Part shown: piece after piece, positions 3,327 through 23,813 of the stretch
Layout of the letters: each line of letters starts with the position of its first letter
How positions within the stretch are numbered: position 1 is the first letter of the stretch
Notes under the pieces: generated by a model
What the model saw: the letters and a program-made list of their open reading frames with translations, nothing else
What the model was told of the DNA's origin: nothing
The model's database searches: none
Program-made: the position numbers and the translations under genes
Virus record (IMG/VR): IMGVR_UViG_3300008954_000275
Span: 1-24,000 of that record
DNA: 24,000 nucleotides
Direction: 5' to 3' (one strand)
Origin: a virus

Positions 3327-3340
3327 GTTGATAAACATAT

Positions 3341-3413
3341 GGGGATATAGCTCAGATGGGAGAGCGTTGCCCTTGCACGGCAAAGGTCGCCGGTTCGATC
3401 CCGGCTGTCTCCA
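3341..3413 (+). tRNA. tRNA-Ala (UGC anticodon)
   Basis: A 73-nt cloverleaf: acceptor GGGGATA with TGTCTCC (wobble pairs included) and discriminator A, D arm GCTC...GAGC, anticodon arm TTGCC CTTGCAC GGCAA with anticodon TGC, T arm GCCGG TTCGATC CCGGC. No encoded CCA. Only 7 nt separate it from tRNA-Thr. Confidence 0.95.
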
Positions 3414-3420
3414 TTATTAT

Positions 3421-3493
3421 GCTGATGTAGCTCAGACGGCAGAGCAGTAGCTTTGTAAGCTTCAGGTCGTCGGTTCGATTCCGACCATCAGCT
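3421..3493 (+). tRNA. tRNA-Thr (UGU anticodon)
   Basis: A 73-nt cloverleaf: acceptor GCTGATG with CATCAGC and discriminator T, D arm GCTC...GAGC, anticodon loop TTTGTAA with anticodon TGT, T arm GTCGG TTCGATT CCGAC. The anticodon stem GTAGC/GCTTC holds one T-T mismatch. No CCA is encoded; a short T-run follows directly. Confidence 0.93.
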
Positions 3494-3530
3494 TTTTCTC
3501 AAAAAAAGTTTGAAAAAAATCACTTTTACC

Positions 3531-3570
3531 CTAAACCTTTTAAACTGCAGAACGTCTAATATAGTGTATA
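3531..3570 (+). promoter_or_regulatory. Class B promoter-like element, copy 1
   Basis: CTAAACCTTT (3531-3540), 11 bp, then ACGTCTAATATAGTGTAT (3552-3569), followed by AAAGGAC. This is one of four near-identical elements. It is preceded by an A/T-rich tract after tRNA-Thr and followed 20 nt later by a TTG-started gene. The ATAGTGTATA segment aligns with the -10 of class A promoters, or TAATAT could be the -10. No standard -35 is present. Confidence 0.6.
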
Positions 3571-3589: not shown

Positions 3590-3781
3590 TTGAAACTGAA
3601 GAAACGACTCAAGACCATCAAACAGATTGAAAATCTGTCAATCAAGCTGGACTACAACATTTTTGATGTTCTACCTGAAGATGTATTGAAACAGTTGAAT
3701 CCTAATTTCAGTCGCCCGACAATTGGATTTCAGTATCAACCGTCAACAAATGTTGTTGACAACAATCGAAACAAAATTTGA
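3590..3781 (+). CDS. 63-residue basic protein, TTG start
   Basis: TTG at 3590 is the only sensible start; GGAC lies just upstream (AAAGGACA at 3576-3583). The N-terminus is strongly basic (MKLKKRLKTIKQIENLSIKL), followed by DYNIFDVLPEDVLKQLNPNF. Its last codons cover a TTGTTG-A-CAACAA palindrome, part of which recurs near 7377-7400 with no gene attached. Unrecognised. It is flanked by a class B element upstream and a class A promoter downstream. Confidence 0.6.
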   Translation: MKLKKRLKTIKQIENLSIKLDYNIFDVLPEDVLKQLNPNFSRPTIGFQYQPSTNVVDNNRNKI

Positions 3782-3799: not shown

Positions 3800-3829
3800 T
3801 TGACACAGCTACCTCATAAATGGTATAAT
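3800..3829 (+). promoter_or_regulatory. Class A promoter, copy 2
   Basis: TTGACA (3800-3805), 18-bp spacer, TATAAT (3824-3829) with preceding TGG. The 20-nt block GCATTTAGACTTGACACAGC is shared exactly with copy 1, but the second half of the inverted repeat is absent here. It directly precedes the large peptidase/VWA gene. Confidence 0.88.
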
Positions 3830-3852
3830 AGTATTATCAACAATTGGGAGAT

Positions 3853-6081
3853 ATGACATTGAGAACTAAAGTAGAGAACAAAATTTTCAAAGATAAGTTG
3901 GCTAAACTGATGGCGACAGAGAATCTTACCGTCGAATACGGTGAATTTGAAACCGCGGTATTCAATACTGTTGATCGCGTTCTGTCACTTCCGAACTGGT
4001 CACATACATCTAATGATGTTCACAATTTATTAGTAGGTCATGAAGTCAGTCACGCACTAAACACTCCACAATTATCAGATGAATCAGTTTTCACTGATAT
4101 TGATGAAGATCGCCCTCAGGTAGTCCACACTTATATGAATGTGGTAGAGGATGCACGAATTGAACGTGAGATCAAGACCAAATTTCCTGGGCTGAAGAGA
4201 TCATTCTTCAACGGCTATAAGACTCTGGTCGAAGAAGATAAATTCGGTATCAATGACCGCGATGTGTCAGAAATGAACCTGATTGACAGAATTAACCTGT
4301 TCTTCAAGGTTGGCAATCATGTTCACGTACCGTTCAGTCCAGAAGAAAAGCCCTTTCTGAAATTGGTAGAAAATACCAATAGTTTTGATGATGTGATGGA
4401 AGTAGTCAAAAGTATCTACTCTTACGCGAAGACCAAAGCTGAAGATGAAATGAACGAAGCTGAAACTTCTACTGAACACAAAATGATGATTGCCGGTGAT
4501 GATGATGATTCTACACCAGAATCTAATCCAGCTTCATCTGACATTACTGATTCAGAAAAGGTCGAGATGCCGTCTAATAGTTCTTCTGGTGAAGATGAAG
4601 CTGATCTCGGCGATGAGGAAAATTCTTCTGATTCTGATGATACGTCTGGCTCAGGCGGTAATGAAGGTGCGGATGACCAATTAACTGATAAATTGGATTC
4701 TGAAACTTCCAATAGTCTGAAGGATTCACTTGATGATCTGGTCGAAAAGGACAATTGGGGCAGTGCTGATGTTCCTAATTATTACTACATTCCAGAAGTC
4801 AACTCTGATGATTTTGTGGTAGAATTAAAGGATGTTCACCGTCAGATTGAAGCTTACTATTCCACTGGATACCAGTTTGAAGCTGATGAAATACGTCAGG
4901 AATTCACTAAGTTCAAGCGTGATACGTCCAAAGTAGTCAACTACATGGCGAAGGAATTTGAACTCAAGAAAAACGCAGAACAGATGTCAAGAGCGTCGGT
5001 TTCCAAAACTGGTGTAATTGATGTCAACAAGCTTCACTCATACAAGTACAATGATGATCTGTTCCGTCGAGTGACTTCAATCCCAGGCGGGAAAAATCAT
5101 GGTCTGGTGATGTTTGTCGATTGGTCTGGCTCAATGTCCGATTCAATCGGTGCTGTTATCCGTCAATCACTGACACTCGCAATGTTCTGTAAGAAAGTTG
5201 ACATTCCGTTTAACCTGTATTCCTTTACTGATTCCGGCATCAAGGTTGGTCACATCACACCCGGCGTTCATGAGCCAGATGATGTGGTAGGAAATGAAAC
5301 TCATTATGGCCATCCGGCGATCAATTACAAGTCTGGTGATATGACCATTTCCAATTTCCGTCTACGTGAACTACTCAACTCCAAGCTGAATAATCGACTA
5401 TTCGACATCGCGATGTATAACCTGTTCACTATGGCCAAGAATCTGGATGATTCGTACTGGAGAAATGTACCTTATAATGACCAGCTGAATTCGACTCCAT
5501 TGAACGAAGCTATCATCATCGCCCATGACCTGATTCCAAAATTCCGTTCACATTATAACTTGGAAAAGGTAACCGCGGTCTGGCTGACAGATGGCGACTC
5601 TAATTCTAATGATACTAGATATTTCGCGGGTGATGGCGATAATCCCTATACCTATTCATCAACCGAAAGAATTGTCAGTAATCGAACAACCAAACTTCAG
5701 TATCCAGCTAGTAACAGATCTGAAATGACCAACGCCCTTCTTGAATCACTGAAAGAAACAACACAGATTGAGACGGTTGGATTTTTCCTAACTGAGAGAA
5801 GAGCACAGAATCTAAGGTATAAGATACCCATGACAGAAGAAAATGAAAAGAAACTTAAATCCTTCTATCGTAACAAGTCAGCAGTATTCACAAATGTCCG
5901 CGGATACTCGGAATACTATGTACTCAGATCAGGAAAAAAAGATCTGGATACTGACTTTGATACCTTTGATATTGAGAGCGGAATGAAAAAAGGAAAAATC
6001 ACCACCGCGTTTAAGAAGCATACCAAAGCTCGTTTGACCAATCGAGTAGTATTAACCTCACTGATTGACGTAATATCATAA
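3853..6081 (+). CDS. CobT-like protein: metallopeptidase-like HExxH domain plus VWA domain
   Basis: A 742-residue protein in three parts. The N-terminal part (about 1-200) has HEVSH at 63-67 and VVEDARIE with Glu99, the layout of gluzincin-type metallopeptidase-like domains fused to VWA proteins. Residues about 205-300 are an acidic Ser/Asp/Glu-rich linker, as in CobT. The C-terminal VWA domain has an intact metal-ion adhesion site: DWSGS (Asp423, Ser425, Ser427), Thr548 in STPLNEA, and Asp580 in LTDGDS. CobT-type proteins work with a hexameric AAA+ partner (CobS/MoxR type), and such an ATPase is encoded at 7780. Known partners drive metal insertion or protein remodelling; a role in cobalamin synthesis is not implied. 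ATG 3853 is only 2 nt after GGAG, while in-frame TTG 3859 is 8 nt after it. Whether the peptidase site is active is unknown. Confidence 0.85.
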   Translation: MTLRTKVENKIFKDKLAKLMATENLTVEYGEFETAVFNTVDRVLSLPNWSHTSNDVHNLLVGHEVSHALNTPQLSDESVFTDIDEDRPQVVHTYMNVVEDARIEREIKTKFPGLKRSFFNGYKTLVEEDKFGINDRDVSEMNLIDRINLFFKVGNHVHVPFSPEEKPFLKLVENTNSFDDVMEVVKSIYSYAKTKAEDEMNEAETSTEHKMMIAGDDDDSTPESNPASSDITDSEKVEMPSNSSSGEDEADLGDEENSSDSDDTSGSGGNEGADDQLTDKLDSETSNSLKDSLDDLVEKDNWGSADVPNYYYIPEVNSDDFVVELKDVHRQIEAYYSTGYQFEADEIRQEFTKFKRDTSKVVNYMAKEFELKKNAEQMSRASVSKTGVIDVNKLHSYKYNDDLFRRVTSIPGGKNHGLVMFVDWSGSMSDSIGAVIRQSLTLAMFCKKVDIPFNLYSFTDSGIKVGHITPGVHEPDDVVGNETHYGHPAINYKSGDMTISNFRLRELLNSKLNNRLFDIAMYNLFTMAKNLDDSYWRNVPYNDQLNSTPLNEAIIIAHDLIPKFRSHYNLEKVTAVWLTDGDSNSNDTRYFAGDGDNPYTYSSTERIVSNRTTKLQYPASNRSEMTNALLESLKETTQIETVGFFLTERRAQNLRYKIPMTEENEKKLKSFYRNKSAVFTNVRGYSEYYVLRSGKKDLDTDFDTFDIESGMKKGKITTAFKKHTKARLTNRVVLTSLIDVIS

Positions 6082-7184: not shown

Positions 7185-7220
7185 AACAGTGTCACTTTTG
7201 GGTGACACTGTTCAATTTTT
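7185..7220 (+). terminator. Intrinsic (Rho-independent) terminator
   Basis: AACAGTGTCAC (7185-7195) and GTGACACTGTT (7202-7212) form an 11-bp perfect stem with a 6-nt loop (TTTTGG), followed by CAATTTTT. It lies 14 nt after the stop of the orphan 212-residue gene and insulates it from the promoter region downstream. It is the clearest terminator in the window. Confidence 0.9.
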
Positions 7221-7304: not shown

Positions 7305-7342
7305 CTAAACCTTTTTCTCTCCCATACGTCTAATATGGTGTA
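7305..7342 (+). promoter_or_regulatory. Class B promoter-like element, copy 2
   Basis: CTAAACCTTT (7305-7314), 11 bp, ACGTCTAATATGGTGTA (7326-7342), then GGACA at 7355-7359, as in copy 1. No convincing gene follows before the class A promoter at 7422. The stretch 7343-7421 holds only a remnant resembling the tail of the region after copy 1 (GTTGACA...CAACAATCGAAA). The preceding 7221-7304 shows nothing else I can name. Confidence 0.6.
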
Positions 7343-7421: not shown

Positions 7422-7451
7422 TTGACTTTGGGTTGTCCAATATGGTATAAT
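7422..7451 (+). promoter_or_regulatory. Class A promoter, copy 3
   Basis: TTGACT (7422-7427), 18-bp spacer ending AATATGG, TATAAT (7446-7451). It drives the 58-residue gene at 7515. The untranslated leader of about 60 nt is longer than for other copies. Confidence 0.85.
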
Positions 7452-7708: not shown

Positions 7709-7742
7709 GGATGGGTCATTTAGTCTTGACTTTGACCCATCC
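7709..7742 (+). repeat. Inverted repeat flanking the -35 of class A promoter copy 4
   Basis: GGATGGGTCA (7709-7718) and TGACCCATCC (7733-7742) are exact 10-bp inverted repeats separated by 14 nt that contain most of the TTGACT -35 element. It could be an operator bound by a dimeric repressor or activator. No T-run follows, so it is less likely to be a terminator for the gene at 7515. Confidence 0.55.
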
Positions 7743-7755
7743 AATATGGTATAAT
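7726..7755 (+). promoter_or_regulatory. Class A promoter, copy 4
   Basis: TTGACT (7726-7731), 18-bp spacer, TATAAT (7750-7755), with TGG before the -10. The sequence from the -10 through the leader is nearly identical to that of copy 1 (ATAGTATATTAAACAATTGG). It drives the AAA+ ATPase gene. Confidence 0.88.
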
Positions 7756-7779: not shown

Positions 7780-9006
7780 ATGACATTGAGTACAGCAAAT
7801 CAGATTGATAGTTTAGACTTGACCTTTGAGAAAATTTTTGATTCTGGTATTGGAATAGAAAGAGAAGTGATTACTACTGGTGAACTGACTAAGATTTGGC
7901 CAAATGGTGGCTATAGTCGCGAACTCGATAGTGCTAAAATTCCGAATCCCAAAACAGGTAGGAATAAAGTAGGTGTTCGGAGATTAGAATGGTCAAAATG
8001 GAGTAAGTATTCGTTACATAGCGGCGAAAATGTTGCCACTGCAGAGGCCATCACTACGGTGGTTCCAGAGCCAGTTCCTCAACCTAGCGGCGAATTGGTT
8101 GCTGATATGGCTGAAGTCAGTTTTGTTCCTAGTGTTGACAGTACCTATGTCAAATGGGGCCATCATACTAAAGTTGAACAGATTATCAAGTCTGGAATGT
8201 TCTATCCTACATTCGTTACTGGACTCTCTGGTAATGGAAAAACTTTCATGATCGAGCAGGTCTGTGCGAAGCTGGAACGTGAATGTGTCCGCGTCAATAT
8301 CACTATCGAAACTGATGAAGATGATCTGTTGGGTGGATTCAGATTGATCAATGGTGAGACAGTGTTTCACAGAGGCCCTGTGGTCGACGCGATGGAGCGT
8401 GGTGCAGTTCTTTTACTAGATGAAATAGACCTCGCGAGTAATAAGATTTTGTGTCTACAGCCAGTGCTAGAGGGCAAGGGTGTGTTCCTCAAAAAAATCA
8501 ACCAATGGGTCAAACCTGCAAAAGGATTTACAGTCATCGCGACTGCGAACACTAAAGGTAAAGGCTCTGAGACTGGCTCCTTTGTGGGTACTCAGATTCT
8601 CAACGAAGCTTTTCTTGAAAGATTCGCAGTGACCTTTGAACAAGCTTACGCGTCACCTACTATCGAAAAGAAAATGCTCCTCAAGCACATGGCTGAAGCT
8701 GACGCGATTGATGATGGTTTCGCAGAGAAGCTAAGTCACTGGGCTGAGTCGATTCGTAAGACCTATTATGATGATGGGATTGATGAAATTATCAGTACTC
8801 GGCGACTGGTTCACATTGTCAATGCGTTTGGAATTTTCGGCGATAAAATGACAGCCATCAAGCTATGTATCAGTCGGTTCGATGAAGAAACCAAAATTGC
8901 GTTTATGGAATTGTATACAGCACATGATGAAACCGTGACCACTGAGAGTACGGTGGAAGATGTTGAAGCAGTCATGACTCCAGCCAGTGACTTCACTCCG
9001 TTCTAG
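7780..9006 (+). CDS. MoxR/CobS-like AAA+ ATPase
   Basis: A 408-residue protein. Residues about 1-75 form an N-terminal region; 76-110 is a Pro/Val/Glu-rich linker; the AAA+ module follows. Walker A is GLSGNGKT (Gly148 to Thr155, Lys154), Walker B is VLLLDEID (Asp214, Glu215), the sensor-1 Asn lies in IATANTKGKG (about 258), and a likely arginine finger lies in NEAFLERF (about 287). The Walker B/DEID block and the overall order fit MoxR/CobS ATPases, which act with VWA proteins; CobS-like genes are known in T4-like cyanophages. The peptidase/VWA protein at 3853 is the likely partner. Only 2 nt separate GGAG from ATG 7780, while in-frame TTG 7786 is 8 nt away. Confidence 0.88.
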   Translation: MTLSTANQIDSLDLTFEKIFDSGIGIEREVITTGELTKIWPNGGYSRELDSAKIPNPKTGRNKVGVRRLEWSKWSKYSLHSGENVATAEAITTVVPEPVPQPSGELVADMAEVSFVPSVDSTYVKWGHHTKVEQIIKSGMFYPTFVTGLSGNGKTFMIEQVCAKLERECVRVNITIETDEDDLLGGFRLINGETVFHRGPVVDAMERGAVLLLDEIDLASNKILCLQPVLEGKGVFLKKINQWVKPAKGFTVIATANTKGKGSETGSFVGTQILNEAFLERFAVTFEQAYASPTIEKKMLLKHMAEADAIDDGFAEKLSHWAESIRKTYYDDGIDEIISTRRLVHIVNAFGIFGDKMTAIKLCISRFDEETKIAFMELYTAHDETVTTESTVEDVEAVMTPASDFTPF

Positions 9007-9024
9007 TCATGAAGGCGGCTGCCA

Positions 9025-9843
9025 GTGTCTGATGCGTCGCGGCGTCGGGTGCTACGCGGCCTAGGAGTCACACGACACACTACTAGTTTCGTAAATAGGC
9101 GACAATATGGACATTCAAAATTTCACAGAGAGTCACAAATGCACTTAGTACCAAAAGCCAAGGAATCCTACCCATTAACCACAGTCATTGGAATGGGTCT
9201 AAGGGTTATCCAAGATGATGACGGAAAATATCTAAGTTCGGACGCAGTTTACCAAACGCAATTATTAAGCACCGGCGAGCAGGTCAAAAAATTATTAGAA
9301 AATTTCGGACAGAAGGGAGGCAGCTGGAATCAGTATATTGGAAAGGATCTTTTAATAGAATCCGCAGTGATTATGAAATGGGCTGAGAATTTTTTCTTGA
9401 CTGATTCCTCAGATTATCAAAGTCGTTGTAAGGAACTTTTTGAGCATCAGCACAGGCAAATAGAGTCTCATGATATTGGAACCATTGTCAGTACTATTCC
9501 GATGTATCAGTATTCCTCAGATCTGGATACAAACTGTAAGGATTCTGATTATTTCGGACAGCAATATCAAAGCACAGGAATCCTATTCTTGAAGTTAATC
9601 AAAATTAATCAGGACAAAGGGTGGCTAAAATGTCGTAGTCAGGATGGTAATTTATTTTTCTTCTATTTGAAGAATGAAAAAATCGTAGAGCATCAGCTAG
9701 AGGTTGGTGATTGTTTCACTCTGGAAGCAAAAGTTAAGGATCACGCCGAGTCTCCTTTTGACAGAGATTTATCAGGGAAAAGGCTACGGGTAACAAGTTT
9801 GAATTACGCGAAGGTGGTTAAAAATTATGGAAAACCTAAATAA
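9025..9843 (+). CDS. Protein with C-terminal OB-fold-like domain
   Basis: A 272-residue frame. The C-terminal part (about 190-265) has the look of an OB-fold region found in phage helicase-related and hypothetical proteins: GWLKCRSQDGNLFFFYLK, then LEVGDCFTLEAKVKDHAES, then GKRLRVTSLNYAKVV. The middle is helical and charged. The start is uncertain. GTG 9025 adds a basic, GC-rich segment (SRRRVLRGLGVTRHTTS), while ATG 9139 (MHLVPKAKES) has AGAGAG upstream at good spacing. It could bind nucleic acid. It follows the AAA+ gene by 18 nt and overlaps the next gene by 17 nt. Confidence 0.68.
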   Translation: MSDASRRRVLRGLGVTRHTTSFVNRRQYGHSKFHRESQMHLVPKAKESYPLTTVIGMGLRVIQDDDGKYLSSDAVYQTQLLSTGEQVKKLLENFGQKGGSWNQYIGKDLLIESAVIMKWAENFFLTDSSDYQSRCKELFEHQHRQIESHDIGTIVSTIPMYQYSSDLDTNCKDSDYFGQQYQSTGILFLKLIKINQDKGWLKCRSQDGNLFFFYLKNEKIVEHQLEVGDCFTLEAKVKDHAESPFDRDLSGKRLRVTSLNYAKVVKNYGKPK

Positions 9844-10933: not shown

Positions 10934-11405
10934 TTCAATATTGATGCCGGAACTAGACAAAGCAATTGTGGTGATTAAGAACTATGTGGAAATTCTTGAG
11001 AAGAAAGTCATAGAATTAGGAACCGAAAACAAGGATTTGAAAGTTGAATTGCATGACCTACATAATGAAATTGGACTGCTGAAAAAAGAGCCTGAGAAAT
11101 CTCATACGCCTATAAGAAATCAGTCGAGTCAACAATACGGGCTGGAACTGAATAGAAGAAAAGAAAATGGTGACAAGTCAGTTCTGGAATATATGAGTAT
11201 CCATAGAGAGTTAGTTACGACAAAAATAAAAATAAGAAAAACTAACCCAAAATTATTTCAAGATTGGGAGAAGAGCTATTCACAGTCATTTTCTGATTAT
11301 AGTGGTTATTCTTTTGAGGAGCATTTGAAACTAGACACGGATGAAATCAGGAAAGAGCTGAATGATTTGATAGAATATCTAGAAGAAAACGGAGAGTGGA
11401 CATAA
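10926..11405 (+). CDS. 159-residue protein with N-terminal coiled coil
   Basis: ATG 10926 overlaps the previous gene by 8 nt. Residues about 10-55 form a coiled coil (IKNYVEILEKKVIELGTENK onwards), followed by a polar linker and a C-terminal helical segment with many aromatic residues (WEKSYSQSFSDYSGYSFEEH). No recognised domain. Its stop overlaps the ATG of the next small gene. Confidence 0.65.
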   Translation: MDDSILMPELDKAIVVIKNYVEILEKKVIELGTENKDLKVELHDLHNEIGLLKKEPEKSHTPIRNQSSQQYGLELNRRKENGDKSVLEYMSIHRELVTTKIKIRKTNPKLFQDWEKSYSQSFSDYSGYSFEEHLKLDTDEIRKELNDLIEYLEENGEWT

Positions 11406-11575
11406 TGGGTAATTTTGTTAGGAAGGGTACGGTTGGTCGAAAGTTGAAAACAGGAGATTTGGATGTCCACACTGGCTTAAGGTATCGAAAAAAAACTTCA
11501 GCTAGACCTAAACCTTTATCAGGCTGGAAACGTCTAATAGGTGTAGTTATTGATTGGATGCGTAAAAGGAGATAA
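11405..11575 (+). CDS. 56-residue basic protein overlapping a class B element
   Basis: ATG 11405, coupled to the upstream TAA. A strongly basic 56-residue product (MGNFVRKGTVGRKLKTGDLD ... ending IDWMRKRR). A degenerate class B promoter element lies inside its 3' half, so the residues RPKPLSGWKRLIGV are dictated by, or tolerate, the promoter sequence. Either the peptide is real and hosts the promoter, or the frame is incidental leader DNA. I lean slightly to real because of the start overlap and the TAATG-type junction with the next gene. Confidence 0.48.
   Translation: MGNFVRKGTVGRKLKTGDLDVHTGLRYRKKTSARPKPLSGWKRLIGVVIDWMRKRR
11508..11546 (+). promoter_or_regulatory. Class B promoter-like element, copy 3 (degenerate)
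   Basis: CTAAACCTTT (11508-11517), 12 bp, then ACGTCTAATAGGTGTAG (11530-11546). Compared with the other copies the gap is one base longer and one base is missing from the TATGG part, so total length is kept. The upstream AAAACTTCAG is shared with copy 2. It lies about 30 nt before the gene at 11578. Confidence 0.5.
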
Positions 11576-11577
11576 TG

Positions 11578-12228
11578 ATGAAGTCGAAACGAAGAACAAC
11601 TAATATTGGTCGTAATGGTGTTGCAGTAGATCCAACTAGAAAAAATGAATTTGATGACAAACGAGAGGTCAAGCTCTTTCGTGATTTTTTGGGTAAACCT
11701 GATGTTAGAGATTATTTGAAAGAAAGTAGTGGTGTTGAAACTGGTGGAAAGTTAAAAGAATTTAGAACTTTTCTGTCTAAGAATAATAAGAAAAATTTTG
11801 GTTGGACTGGCAGACATTTTTTAAAAAAACCTTCAGAATTTTTAAATTTGGAAGATGCACCTAGTAATTTACTTAATAATGCCGGTAAGTTAATGTGGGA
11901 AAAAGGTAAGCGACAGAAACCTGATATTGAAATGGTCTTTGAAAGCGGGAATGCTTTAATTGTAGATGTAGAGAGATTTAAAGGTGGTGGTAGAAATTCT
12001 CGTTACGATGGGGATGGGAATGAAATTTTTAATGCTTGGTGTCGCAAAATGAAATATTTACGTGACAATCCTGAGAAATTTTTCTATGTTTCTTTTAATA
12101 AAGAAAATAGAATGTCAATTATTAATGGTTCTATTCTTGTTGATATTGAGGATAGGTATATTGAACTGAATGGAAGGGATTGGGTAAGGCAGGTTCCAGT
12201 AGAGAGGGTGAAAAGATTTTACGTTTAA
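11578..12228 (+). CDS. 216-residue protein, possible PD-(D/E)XK-like fold
   Basis: ATG 11578 with AGGAG 6 nt upstream; ATG 11575 is adjacent and in frame. A basic N-terminus (KSKRRTTNIGRNG) precedes a helical region and then PDIEMVFESGNALIVDVERF, which has the spacing of a restriction-endonuclease-like core (Asp ... hydrophobic strand with Asp and Glu) but lacks the canonical lysine at the third position. The C-terminus is beta-rich (MSIINGSILVDIEDRYIEL). It might be a phage nuclease or an inactive relative; I am not sure of either. It is downstream of a class B element. Confidence 0.68.
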   Translation: MKSKRRTTNIGRNGVAVDPTRKNEFDDKREVKLFRDFLGKPDVRDYLKESSGVETGGKLKEFRTFLSKNNKKNFGWTGRHFLKKPSEFLNLEDAPSNLLNNAGKLMWEKGKRQKPDIEMVFESGNALIVDVERFKGGGRNSRYDGDGNEIFNAWCRKMKYLRDNPEKFFYVSFNKENRMSIINGSILVDIEDRYIELNGRDWVRQVPVERVKRFYV

Positions 12229-14443: not shown

Positions 14444-14473
14444 TTGACTTTACCATAGTTAATATGGTATAAT
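14444..14473 (+). promoter_or_regulatory. Class A promoter, copy 5
   Basis: TTGACT (14444-14449), 18-bp spacer ending AATATGG, TATAAT (14468-14473). The flank AATAACCTTGACTTT is shared with copy 3. It sits 3 nt after the lipoprotein gene and starts the transcript running into the FmdB-like, PQ-loop, ligase and ThyX genes. Confidence 0.87.
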
Positions 14474-20136: not shown

Positions 20137-20970
20137 ATGAATCAAAATGAACTACATGATAAGATCTTATATCCAGTAACCAGAGTAAAAGCTGGTAAAG
20201 CTGGTGGCAGTGGTGTGTTGGTATATAGTGAACCAGATCCTAATGATGCTGGTAAGAATATTAATATTGTGCTGACCTGTCAGCACGTTATTGATGGTGC
20301 TATTTCAGTAAAGGATGAATGGGATTCACTACTCAAAAGGGAAATTAAAAAGGACATCATGGAAGAAGTTTCAGTAGAAATTTTTGATTATGATGGTTCT
20401 AAGATTGCTTCGGCTAATAGTTCACAAGCCGAGATAATCGCCTATGATAAAGGACACGATCTTGCCGCTGTTAAATTACATAATAGTCGTCCACAGGAGC
20501 ATGTTGCATCAATTTATCCGAAAGACGATATTGATGGTCTGCGATTATTTGATGAGGTATGGACAAGTGGATGTAGCTTGTTACATGATCCATTTTCTAA
20601 TAAGGGCGAGTTGACATATCTACGTGAAATGATTGACCAGAAATCTTATATCATGTATAATGCTCCTTCCATTTTTGGAAACTCAGGTGGTGGTGTATTT
20701 CATGGTAATGGAACATTGCTAGGTTTGTGTTCACGTATTACGAATATTCAGTTAGGGTTCGGGATTGATGTTATGACTTGGATGGGATTTGGTACGCACC
20801 CATCGAGGTTGTATGAGTTTTTCGAGCATCATGAATTACAATTTATCTATGATGGTTCGGATTATTACGATGCACAGGAACGTCGCAAGGTACGTCAACG
20901 AAAATCACTCCGTCATCTATTCATAGAAGAAAAGGATGCTGATAAGGTTGATGTAGCTGAGCAGTCTTAA
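20137..20970 (+). CDS. Trypsin-like serine protease
   Basis: A 277-residue protein with a complete chymotrypsin-fold triad: His50 in LTCQHVI, Asp108 in KGHDLAAVKL and Ser183 in FGNSGGGVF, followed by GTLLGLCSRI, as in DegP/S1-family trypsin-like domains. No signal peptide or PDZ domain. The C-terminal part (FFEHHELQFIYDG, then a basic RRKVRQRKSLRH and acidic end) is unusual. ATG 20137 is preferred over GTG 20128 because AAAGGTG falls at the right spacing. A target cannot be inferred; prohead maturation proteases of T4 (gp21) belong to another fold. Confidence 0.87.
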   Translation: MNQNELHDKILYPVTRVKAGKAGGSGVLVYSEPDPNDAGKNINIVLTCQHVIDGAISVKDEWDSLLKREIKKDIMEEVSVEIFDYDGSKIASANSSQAEIIAYDKGHDLAAVKLHNSRPQEHVASIYPKDDIDGLRLFDEVWTSGCSLLHDPFSNKGELTYLREMIDQKSYIMYNAPSIFGNSGGGVFHGNGTLLGLCSRITNIQLGFGIDVMTWMGFGTHPSRLYEFFEHHELQFIYDGSDYYDAQERRKVRQRKSLRHLFIEEKDADKVDVAEQS

Positions 20971-22085: not shown

Positions 22086-22124
22086 CTAAACCTTTTTAGC
22101 TGGCATACGTCTAATATGGTGTAT
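22086..22124 (+). promoter_or_regulatory. Class B promoter-like element, copy 4
   Basis: CTAAACCTTT (22086-22095), 11 bp, ACGTCTAATATGGTGTATG (22107-22125), then AAAAGGACAG. It begins right after the stop of the holin-like gene and is the only promoter-like sequence upstream of the flagellin operon and gp33-gp59 that I can see. It is identical over the core to copy 2. Confidence 0.65.
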
Positions 22125-22240: not shown

Positions 22241-22411
22241 ATGAGTGAAGAACGGTTAGAGGAAATTGAAGTGGATTTGGATGATGATCTTTTTGATAAG
22301 ATTGTTAGACATTTAGGAACGGATGAGCCAGAAGTAATTTCGGAATGGGTTTCGGAAGTGGTCAAGACAGTGTTTACAGAATATTTGGACAAGGAGATGC
22401 AAGATGATTAA
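22241..22411 (+). CDS. 56-residue acidic protein, first gene of flagellin operon
   Basis: ATG 22241 with TTGGAG about 8 nt upstream, directly after the structured leader. Product MSEERLEEIEVDLDDDLFDK onward, strongly acidic, with helical EVISEWVSEVVKTVFTEYLD. Size and style suggest a small regulatory or chaperone-like partner, but no family is recognised. Overlaps the next gene by 8 nt. Confidence 0.65.
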   Translation: MSEERLEEIEVDLDDDLFDKIVRHLGTDEPEVISEWVSEVVKTVFTEYLDKEMQDD

Positions 22412-22619
22412 TACTTATGGTGTAAAGCAAATGAATTCGGTGGACTACTATCGTGTCTTCTTAGAGATTCAAGCTGCTAAACAATCTGAACGTTTGAGTA
22501 TGAAGACGGAATTAGCAACTCATGAACGTGAGAAGCACATGATCAATGTTCAGATCAAAGAAAATAATAACGTTATGGCTCCAAGAAAATGGGGTTCTAA
22601 CTTAGATGTGAAAGCATGA
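22404..22619 (+). CDS. 71-residue helical protein upstream of flagellin
   Basis: ATG 22404 with AAGGAG 7 nt upstream. A mostly helical product (DYYRVFLEIQAAKQSERLSM; KTELATHEREKHMINVQIKE), basic at the C-terminus. Adjacent to the flagellin gene, so it may serve it (secretion chaperone or anchor), but its sequence matches no flagellar chaperone I know (FliS is longer and different). Confidence 0.62.
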   Translation: MINTYGVKQMNSVDYYRVFLEIQAAKQSERLSMKTELATHEREKHMINVQIKENNNVMAPRKWGSNLDVKA

Positions 22620-22643
22620 TGAAAGATGAAAGAGGTAAATTGT

Positions 22644-23474
22644 ATGTTGAGTGGACTAACAGCAAAAACATTGGGTAGGTATCAAGAAGCAACTCGGATG
22701 ATTGAGGAATCAATGTCAAGGTTGGCGTCAGGAACAGCTGATATTGGTTCAGCTGATAAAATTAAAGTGGGTAGGATCAACAACACTATTCACACCTTAC
22801 AGACAGCAAACAAGGTAGTCAAACAGAATCAAGATTTGTTAGAAACTGCTTTAGCTGGAACCGATGCTATTACAGCTGTTGTCATTAAGATGAAAGAGGT
22901 AGCAGCTGAAGCACAGGATGACCAGTTGACAGCTAATCAACGACAAGCTCTGGTGGATGAATACAATGAACTAGCTAAAGAAATTGATTATGTAGCCAAG
23001 AATACTGAATATGATGGTACAGAATTGATTGATGGTTCATTTGGAACTAAGAGCTTTGTTATTGATGGTGTTAATACAGACCAGACTGTCAGTGTTGCGT
23101 TGGGTGATCTTACACTGGAAGGTCTGAAGGTTGGTGCTTATACTGATGCTAATAATCAGGCAGTCACAGCATCGGCATTGGATACTGTAGCTAATGCTGA
23201 AGATGCAGTTACCAGATTGGAAACAGCTTTGTCTACATTAGAAGGTGAACGGTCTAATCAGTTAGCTAAGATCGAAAGATTTGACTTTACGATTTCTCAT
23301 ATGGAACGTATGATTTCTATGAATGAGGAATCCATATCAAGTATTAATGATTTTGATGAAGCTGCAGAGATGGCTAAGTTGACCAGTTATAGAATCGAAC
23401 AACAGACAGCTATGGCACTGATGGCACAAGCACAACAGTTATCTGCTAGCGTTTTACAACTTTTACAAGGATGA
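22644..23474 (+). CDS. Flagellin-like protein
   Basis: A 276-residue protein homologous to bacterial flagellin, the filament subunit. ATG 22644 has AGAGG 8 nt upstream; ATG 22626 lacks one. The N-terminal D0/D1 part shows MIEESMSRLASG (about 20-30), TANKVVKQNQDLLETALAGT, MKEVAAEAQDDQLTANQRQA and EIDYVAKNTEYDGTELIDGS, matching the flagellin signature order (RLSSG..., QTAEGAL..., IRELAVQA..., EFNGTKLLDG). The C-terminal D1/D0 part shows SALDTVANAEDAVTRLETAL, RFDFTISHMERM, SINDFDEAAEMAKLTSYRIE and QQTAMALMAQAQQLSASVLQ then LLQG. The variable middle is very short, so it is a minimal flagellin. Whether it enters host filaments, the virion or neither is unknown. Confidence 0.93.
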   Translation: MLSGLTAKTLGRYQEATRMIEESMSRLASGTADIGSADKIKVGRINNTIHTLQTANKVVKQNQDLLETALAGTDAITAVVIKMKEVAAEAQDDQLTANQRQALVDEYNELAKEIDYVAKNTEYDGTELIDGSFGTKSFVIDGVNTDQTVSVALGDLTLEGLKVGAYTDANNQAVTASALDTVANAEDAVTRLETALSTLEGERSNQLAKIERFDFTISHMERMISMNEESISSINDFDEAAEMAKLTSYRIEQQTAMALMAQAQQLSASVLQLLQG

Positions 23475-23575
23475 TTTACTATACTATACCGTGTGCTACC
23501 TATTGGTTCGATTTTGAAATGGGTAGTGTACGGTATACTTTCAAAGTAGAGATGTATGAAAGAATTGATGACTGA
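23471..23575 (+). CDS. 34-residue small protein
   Basis: ATG 23471 overlaps the flagellin stop (ATGA), and the frame ends at 23575 inside the gp33 start region. Product MIYYTIPCATYWFDFEMGSV followed by RYTFKVEMYERIDD, aromatic and beta-strand-like. The double overlap suggests coupling between flagellin and gp33 translation. Unrecognised, small, moderate confidence. Confidence 0.42.
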   Translation: MIYYTIPCATYWFDFEMGSVRYTFKVEMYERIDD

Positions 23576-23813
23576 GGAAGAGCAGTTAATGAATCAATTG
23601 ATTCAAAATAAAAGCAAATTTACTTTTGCAATAGAGAAAATTAGAAAGGATTTTGAAATGTCATATATTGATTCTATAATTTATTATTGTGATGAACATG
23701 ATATTGAACTTAGCATTGTGGATAGTTTGGTTACACCAAACCTAAAAGAGAAACTTGAAGCAGAAGCAGTTGAGTTGAATTTTCTCCCTAGAGGTGGAGT
23801 CTTACCTATTTAA
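23556..23813 (+). CDS. 33: gp33-like late-transcription coactivator
   Basis: An 85-residue protein matching the conserved core of T4 gp33, the RNA polymerase-binding coactivator that links the sliding clamp gp45 to late promoters. FTFAIEKIRKDFEMSYIDSI corresponds to the T4 segment with IEKMVEEFGMSYLEA, and LKEKLEAEAVELNFL to IIEKIQSEAIDENLL. Shorter than T4 gp33 (112 residues), lacking part of the N-terminal region and the extended C-terminal clamp-binding tail. The order 33 then 59 is as in T4. ATG 23556 is used; ATG 23568 is an alternative. Confidence 0.85.
   Translation: MKELMTEEEQLMNQLIQNKSKFTFAIEKIRKDFEMSYIDSIIYYCDEHDIELSIVDSLVTPNLKEKLEAEAVELNFLPRGGVLPI

Follow-up and report, generated by a model that had tools for sequence, protein, structure and literature searches.

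Phage T4 transcribes replication and regulation genes, between its early and late genes, from middle promoters that pair a MotA box with a TATAAT −10 element and involve AsiA. Little is known about middle transcription in non-enteric T4-like phages, which are without MotA and AsiA. Promoters of extracytoplasmic-function (ECF, group IV) sigma factors are marked by AAC in their −35 and CGT in their −10 element, as in the ECF41 promoter TGTCACA-n16-CGTC, with a spacer of 16 ± 1 (PMC3426412). Salmonella phage 7-11 has late promoters, GTAAtg-(16)-aCTA, that are read by its own ECF-like sigma gp47 on the host core polymerase (PMC8948821). T4-like cyanophages carry sites for host regulators, namely NtcA and Pho boxes (PMC3037559).

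The putative promoter analyzed here, class B, shares traits with each of these systems. Like T4 middle promoters, it lies before replication and regulation genes, but it lacks both a MotA box and a conserved TATAAT and shows a sigma-like −35/−10 pair instead. It has the bipartite layout and 16-bp spacer of the phage 7-11 late promoters, which differ in their consensus, in belonging to a podovirus, in serving late genes and in being read by a phage-encoded sigma, of which none was found in class B phages. As with the NtcA and Pho boxes of cyanophages, a T4-like marine phage would carry sites for a host regulator; there the regulator is a host activator, whereas the reader proposed for class B is an alternative sigma serving core phage genes. 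A literature search returned no lytic phages using host ECF promoters, although this does not prove their absence.

Four copies of a two-box motif

We analyzed a linear 24-kb stretch of a virus record (the window), which encodes T4 RNase H, CobT, CobS, ligase, ThyX, endolysin, gp33 and the start of gp59. It had no window-level nucleotide match among 50,697 phage records, and a 59-nt consensus searched in phages gave three matches only, all chance-like. The pattern CTAAACCTTTN{12,13}CGTCTAA matched exactly four times in the window, at 3531, 7305, 11508 and 22086, all on the plus strand, and not once in 100 dinucleotide shuffles of the window. The four copies listed by the sequence-only reading were thus all recovered. 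That reading had described two conserved blocks at fixed spacing; two boxes, CTAAACCTTT and CGTCTAA, are invariant at every copy, and the spacer between them is 12 or 13. The downstream TATAGTGTA is strongly preferred yet variable. The longer second block originally proposed, ACGTCTAATATGGTGTA, is exact at 7305 and 22086, is one base off at 3531 (ATAGTG) and reads CGTCTAATAGGTGTAG at 11508, where the stretch past the −10 box is 1 base shorter and the spacer 1 base longer. The GGACA said usually to follow the motif is found at 3531, 7305 and 22086 and is absent at 11508; among relatives it is mostly confined to the window's own clade. With supported genes as the reference, all four copies fall between genes; the 56–59-aa ORF overlapping the copy at 11508 (11396/11405–11575) has no support from relatives.

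Copy 1 (3531–3568) consists of CTAAACCTTT at 3531–3540, a spacer of 12, CGTCTAA at 3553–3559 and TATAGTGTA at 3560–3568, with an A-tract upstream at about 3513–3519. It is followed by a 63-aa ORF with a TTG start (3590–3781, plus strand), which is found in relatives (cluster C195), then by a sigma70 promoter of the kind we call class A (3800–3829, plus strand) directly upstream of the gene for a CobT-like protein (3844–6081, plus strand; phrog_459 'peptidase'). In other phages of the group, CobT orthologues lie under a putative class B promoter. The window also carries tRNA genes for Pro-TGG (2453–2526), Ala-TGC (3340–3414) and Thr-TGT (3421–3493), and copy 1 starts 38 nt past the end of the last of these.

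Copy 2 (7305–7342) comprises CTAAACCTTT at 7305–7314, a spacer of 12, CGTCTAA at 7327–7333 and TATGGTGTA at 7334–7342. About 80 nt past it lies a class A promoter (7422–7451, plus strand), forming a B–A tandem, and another (7726–7755, plus strand) stands upstream of the gene for a CobS-like AAA ATPase (7780–9006, plus strand; phrog_249), whose orthologue has class B upstream in contigs G009 and G013. An intrinsic-terminator-like hairpin, AACAGTGTCAC-TTTTG-GGTGACACTGTT followed by CAATTTTT, occupies 7186–7219, and copy 2 is located about 100 nt beyond this hairpin and T-run. Between CobS and the next gene (9007–9070) is a GC-rich stretch, ggcggctgccagtg...gtcgcggcgtcgggtgctacgcggcc, in AT-rich surroundings.

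Copy 3 (11508–11543) is the variant, with CTAAACCTTT at 11508–11517, a spacer of 13, CGTCTAA at 11531–11537 and then TAGGTGTAG; a 217-aa ORF (11575–12228) begins 38 nt past it. Copy 4 (22086–22123) has CTAAACCTTT at 22086–22095, a spacer of 12, CGTCTAA at 22108–22114 and TATGGTGTA at 22115–22123, and is followed by ORFs at 22241–22411 and 22404–22619, a flagellin-like gene at 22626–23474, gp33 at 23556–23813 and gp59 from 23813. The flagellin-like protein matches Pfam Flagellin_N and Flagellin_C; its gene lies just upstream of gp33 in a T4-like phage, and its cluster (C106) includes relatives from four of the five phage groups. Further class A promoters in the window lie at 2765–2794 (TTGACA-N18-TATAAT) and 14444–14473 (both plus strand). 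All five class A sites match the sigma70 consensus exactly; a sixth match, at 20633, falls within a gene.

Spread, placement and promoter classes in related phages

Motif scans of IMG/VR returned 35 and then 56 stretches, a few of them chance-like and inside genes. The non-redundant class B copies number 56, in about 35 related contigs of T4-like (Kyanoviridae-like) phages. Gene by gene, their proteins correspond to those of the T4-like pelagiphage Mosig, including gp13–gp23, gp43–gp47, gp55, gp32, gp33, gp59, CobS, CobT and ThyX. Once chance-like matches were set aside, a common longer pattern emerged, with an A-tract 12–17 nt upstream, CTAAACCTTTT, a spacer and (N)CGTCTAATATAGTGTA. The 721 kb of sequence, in 38 contigs or pieces of contigs, hold 78 exact two-box sites in total; because the motif itself was used to find the contigs, each contig has one exact site or more by construction, which does not apply to the further sites. 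The contigs are fragments, which together cover most T4 core genes and the tail-fibre region least. Near-misses with one to three mismatches to the two-box motif were almost lacking in the 721 kb. The one convincing variant, in which both boxes are altered, combines GTAAACCTTT with CGTTTAA and occurs upstream of CobS in two contigs. An inverted repeat, TAAACC-TTTT-GGGTTTTA, was considered as the conserved feature and set aside because it is present in one clade and absent from others.

The placement of the sites is directly observed and differs from chance. The sequence-only reading had named copies lying mostly inside genes as an outcome that would refute it; instead, 49 of the 56 non-redundant sites lie between genes, compared with 14.5% of random positions, and in 25 of 54 cases the site ends no more than 60 nt from a same-strand start codon (5.7% at random). 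The genes 3′ of class B include CobT, CobS, gp32, gp55, Hsp20 and small genes without known function.

Among identified genes in all contigs, the promoter classes divide clearly. Class B is found upstream of 20 of 125 replication and regulation genes and class A sigma70 promoters upstream of 24, and neither precedes any of 80 structural genes; the T4-type late motif TATAAATA shows the opposite distribution (0/125 and 16/80). With this absence from structural genes, class B is not late, and its timing would be early or middle. Orthologous genes have class A in one phage and class B in another, and B–A tandems occur. Class B lacks the sigma70 pair TTGACA/TATAAT at 16–18 bp, and the window's exact consensus matches are other sites. 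Nor does it show the conserved TATAAT −10 and activator box near −30 of T4 middle promoters, the hexamer after CGTC being TAATAT, TAAATA, TAATAG or TAATAC, or the late pattern of TATAAATA before structural genes. The earlier suggestion of a new promoter-like class, unlike sigma70, T4 middle or T4 late promoters, is therefore borne out by a motif that recurs upstream of genes and is conserved across many phages. As judged from sequence and placement, class B adds a third promoter class to sigma70 and the T4-type late TATAAATA, and we infer that transcription initiates there.

ECF-type architecture and bacterial counterparts

The two boxes have the layout of an ECF promoter. AAC is present in the −35 box, CTAAACCTTT being invariant except at the two GTAAACCTTT sites, and CGT(C) in the −10 box, which is CGTCTAA except at the two CGTTTAA sites. 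The spacer between the boxes is 12 (41 sites) or 13 (15 sites), which places AAAC and CGTC 16 (41 sites) or 17 (15 sites) apart, within the 16 ± 1 of ECF promoters. The strong conservation of TATAGTGTA just past the −10 counts against this reading, since a conserved stretch of this kind is not known as an ECF feature.

We then asked where the same sequence occurs in bacteria. A near-identical string had nine matches among 84,980 bacterial and archaeal species genomes. In three of these, from Spirochaetales, Evansella and Kangiella, an ECF sigma gene follows 5–92 bp downstream, and in a fourth the following gene is Skp-like and adjoins BamA. Across the 369 genomes of Kangiella's class, the string is present once, at the Kangiella ECF sigma gene (locus L147). 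Orthologues of this sigma were identified in 57 of the 197 genomes of its order, and (C/T)TAAACCTTT-N13/14-C(A/G)TCTAA was found upstream of the sigma gene in 29 of 30 orthologue loci, with a spacer of 13 in 24 loci and 14 in five. Shuffled boxes gave a mean of 1.7 and a maximum of 9 at the same 30 loci; under a stricter score, 23 loci retained a two-box site, compared with a shuffled mean of 0.17. The sequence thus stands upstream of ECF sigma genes, the arrangement of autoregulation, in both sets. The Kangiella genome has four two-box sites, each 30–40 nt before a start codon. Besides the sigma gene, the targets, named from sequence, are an MBOAT-like acyltransferase and two exported proteins, and together they look like a small envelope regulon.

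The phage and Kangiella promoters agree almost letter for letter in the −35 (TAAACCTTT), have C(G/A)TCTAA as the −10 with a similar AAC-to-CGTC spacing, and stand shortly before a start codon. They differ in that the first −35 base is C in the phages and usually T in Kangiella-type boxes, whose −10 is often CATCTAA; in a box spacer of 12–13 rather than 13–14; in the conserved TATAGTGTA after the phage −10; and in their targets, which are replication and regulation genes in the phages and envelope genes for the Kangiella ECF promoters. Viral contigs bearing TTAAACC are few (7). The identity between the boxes is directly observed, and because the two boxes precede the sigma gene in 29 of 30 loci, we assign the phage box to the Kangiella sigma subfamily: by its letters it is that subfamily's box, beyond a generic ECF likeness. 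Class B is very probably an ECF-type promoter, with CTAAACCTTT as the −35, CGTCTAA as the −10, 16–17 bp between AAAC and CGTC and often an upstream A-tract. Two-box promoters with the phage-like 12-bp spacer were seen in distant phyla, in Omnitrophica (L067:7744–7774), before the gene for a small exported protein, and in Porphyromonadaceae (L064:1308–1338, minus strand), before a Skp-like gene.

Candidate readers of class B

The sequence-only reading had proposed a modified −10 with an upstream activator box. In its fullest form, host sigma70 would read TAATAT or TATAGT as a −10 while a MotA-like phage activator binds CTAAACCTTT. One or the other hexamer does follow CGTC in most copies, T4 middle promoters have their activator box near −30, and class B genes are of the kind that T4 transcribes from middle promoters. 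We nevertheless consider this improbable, as the candidate −10 varies (TAAATA, TAATAG, TAATAC) and CGTC does not, so that the conserved pair is AAAC-N16/17-CGTC. Sigma70 with an activator would also leave unexplained why the same two boxes, at near-equal spacing, precede bacterial ECF sigma genes. The alignment of ATGGTGTAT with TATAAT is not supported either. Furthermore, we know of no MotA in T4-like marine phages. A promoter for a single-subunit T7-like phage RNA polymerase is suggested by the resemblance of TAATACGTCTAATATAG to TAATACGACTCACTATAG, whose 3′ halves look alike by eye, and a sigma28 (FliA)-type promoter, TAAAGTTT-N11-GCCGATAA, by the flagellin-like gene at 22626, 3′ of copy 4, and by the TAAA common to both −35 boxes. 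Both are highly implausible. The distant CTAAACCTTT box and variable spacing do not suit a compact T7-type promoter and the phages are T4-like; the lack of a PF00940 match in ten contigs weighs little, since control genomes also had none. As for sigma28, its −10 is different, the class B spacing is 1–2 bp longer, most copies are far from flagellin-like genes, and the best bacterial matches precede ECF sigma genes.

Given an ECF-type promoter, the reader could be encoded by the phage or by its host. An ECF-like phage sigma missing from the contigs, or too divergent to be recognized, has its direct precedent in gp47 of phage 7-11; the near-absence of mismatched sites would suit a dedicated phage factor, and the phage spacers of 12–13 are slightly off the bacterial 13–14. 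Searches with Pfam, our own HMMs and profile–profile comparison detected no ECF sigma in the 721 kb of fragmentary phage contigs, while the divergent phage sigma gp36 of phiEco32 was detected as a control. The best profile–profile match for 341 protein clusters against ECF reached 16.8% over 17 residues. Pfam sigma regions 2 and 4 gave only weak region 2 matches in the phage contigs (G001, G008, G021, G030, G034 and G040). PHROGs identifies the matches in G001 and G008 as gp55, and those in G021 and G040 lie at the gp55 locus; G030 and G034, whose motif copies look like chance matches, were left out of this characterization. No phage sigma besides gp55 was found among the characterized matches of these sigma-family searches. 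ECF HMM matches at G028 50361–50546 and G029 30511–30696 (62 aa, E 0.007) and in the window ORF 11350–11751 (minus strand; E 0.11) were judged spurious on account of low scores and the absence of region 4. In addition, none of the viral contigs in IMG/VR encodes the recognition helix of the Kangiella subfamily, G[TS][SC]K[AT][QH][LYF][HSN]RA. Because the contigs are fragments, the searches may have overlooked a phage-encoded sigma, but this appears to be the less likely prospect. With no ECF sigma in the phage contigs and the recognition helix in no viral contig, a host-encoded sigma, proposed from the likeness of the promoters, is our best guess and more probable than not.

One phage candidate is C82, a helical protein of 240–360 aa without known function, which is encoded near CobT and conserved in four of five phage groups (G002:C1:56431–57153, minus strand, L046; relatives in G001, G004, G009, G010, G013, G029 and G031). 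Its clade-specific, two-domain, all-helical character would fit a phage sigma. A tblastn search of 50,697 phage records gave no match, and phrog_11903 matched weakly. Its AlphaFold model is a two-part helical structure (pLDDT 71.5, pTM 0.41) without a significant Foldseek match (best E 0.78), which counts against such a role; a few sigma chains are among the insignificant matches.

Taken as a whole, we favor the reading that class B sites are ECF-type early or middle promoters and that their reader is most likely a host ECF sigma. They would serve replication and regulation genes beside sigma70 early promoters, with late promoters presumably read by gp55. This sigma would belong to the subfamily that Kangiella shares with other gammaproteobacteria of its order; instead of relying on MotA/AsiA as T4 does, the phage would tap a stress or envelope sigma that infection might release. 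The chances seem even that a widespread group of lytic marine T4-like phages has swapped MotA/AsiA for promoters copying those of a host ECF stress sigma, so that replication and late-switch genes (gp32, CobS/CobT, gp55, Hsp20) would need, for their expression, an envelope-stress sigma set free in the host upon infection. If true, a widespread marine phage group would have a third promoter class with a likely reader named; its host must carry one specific ECF sigma, giving a handle on host identity; and a lytic phage would have placed its core genes under a host stress sigma, which the host could turn to its own defense. A small HTH protein of about 131 aa (G004:C1:25704–26099, minus strand; L017:1930–2334) adjoins class B sites; it resembles the C-terminal HTH of serine recombinases and is a possible regulator.
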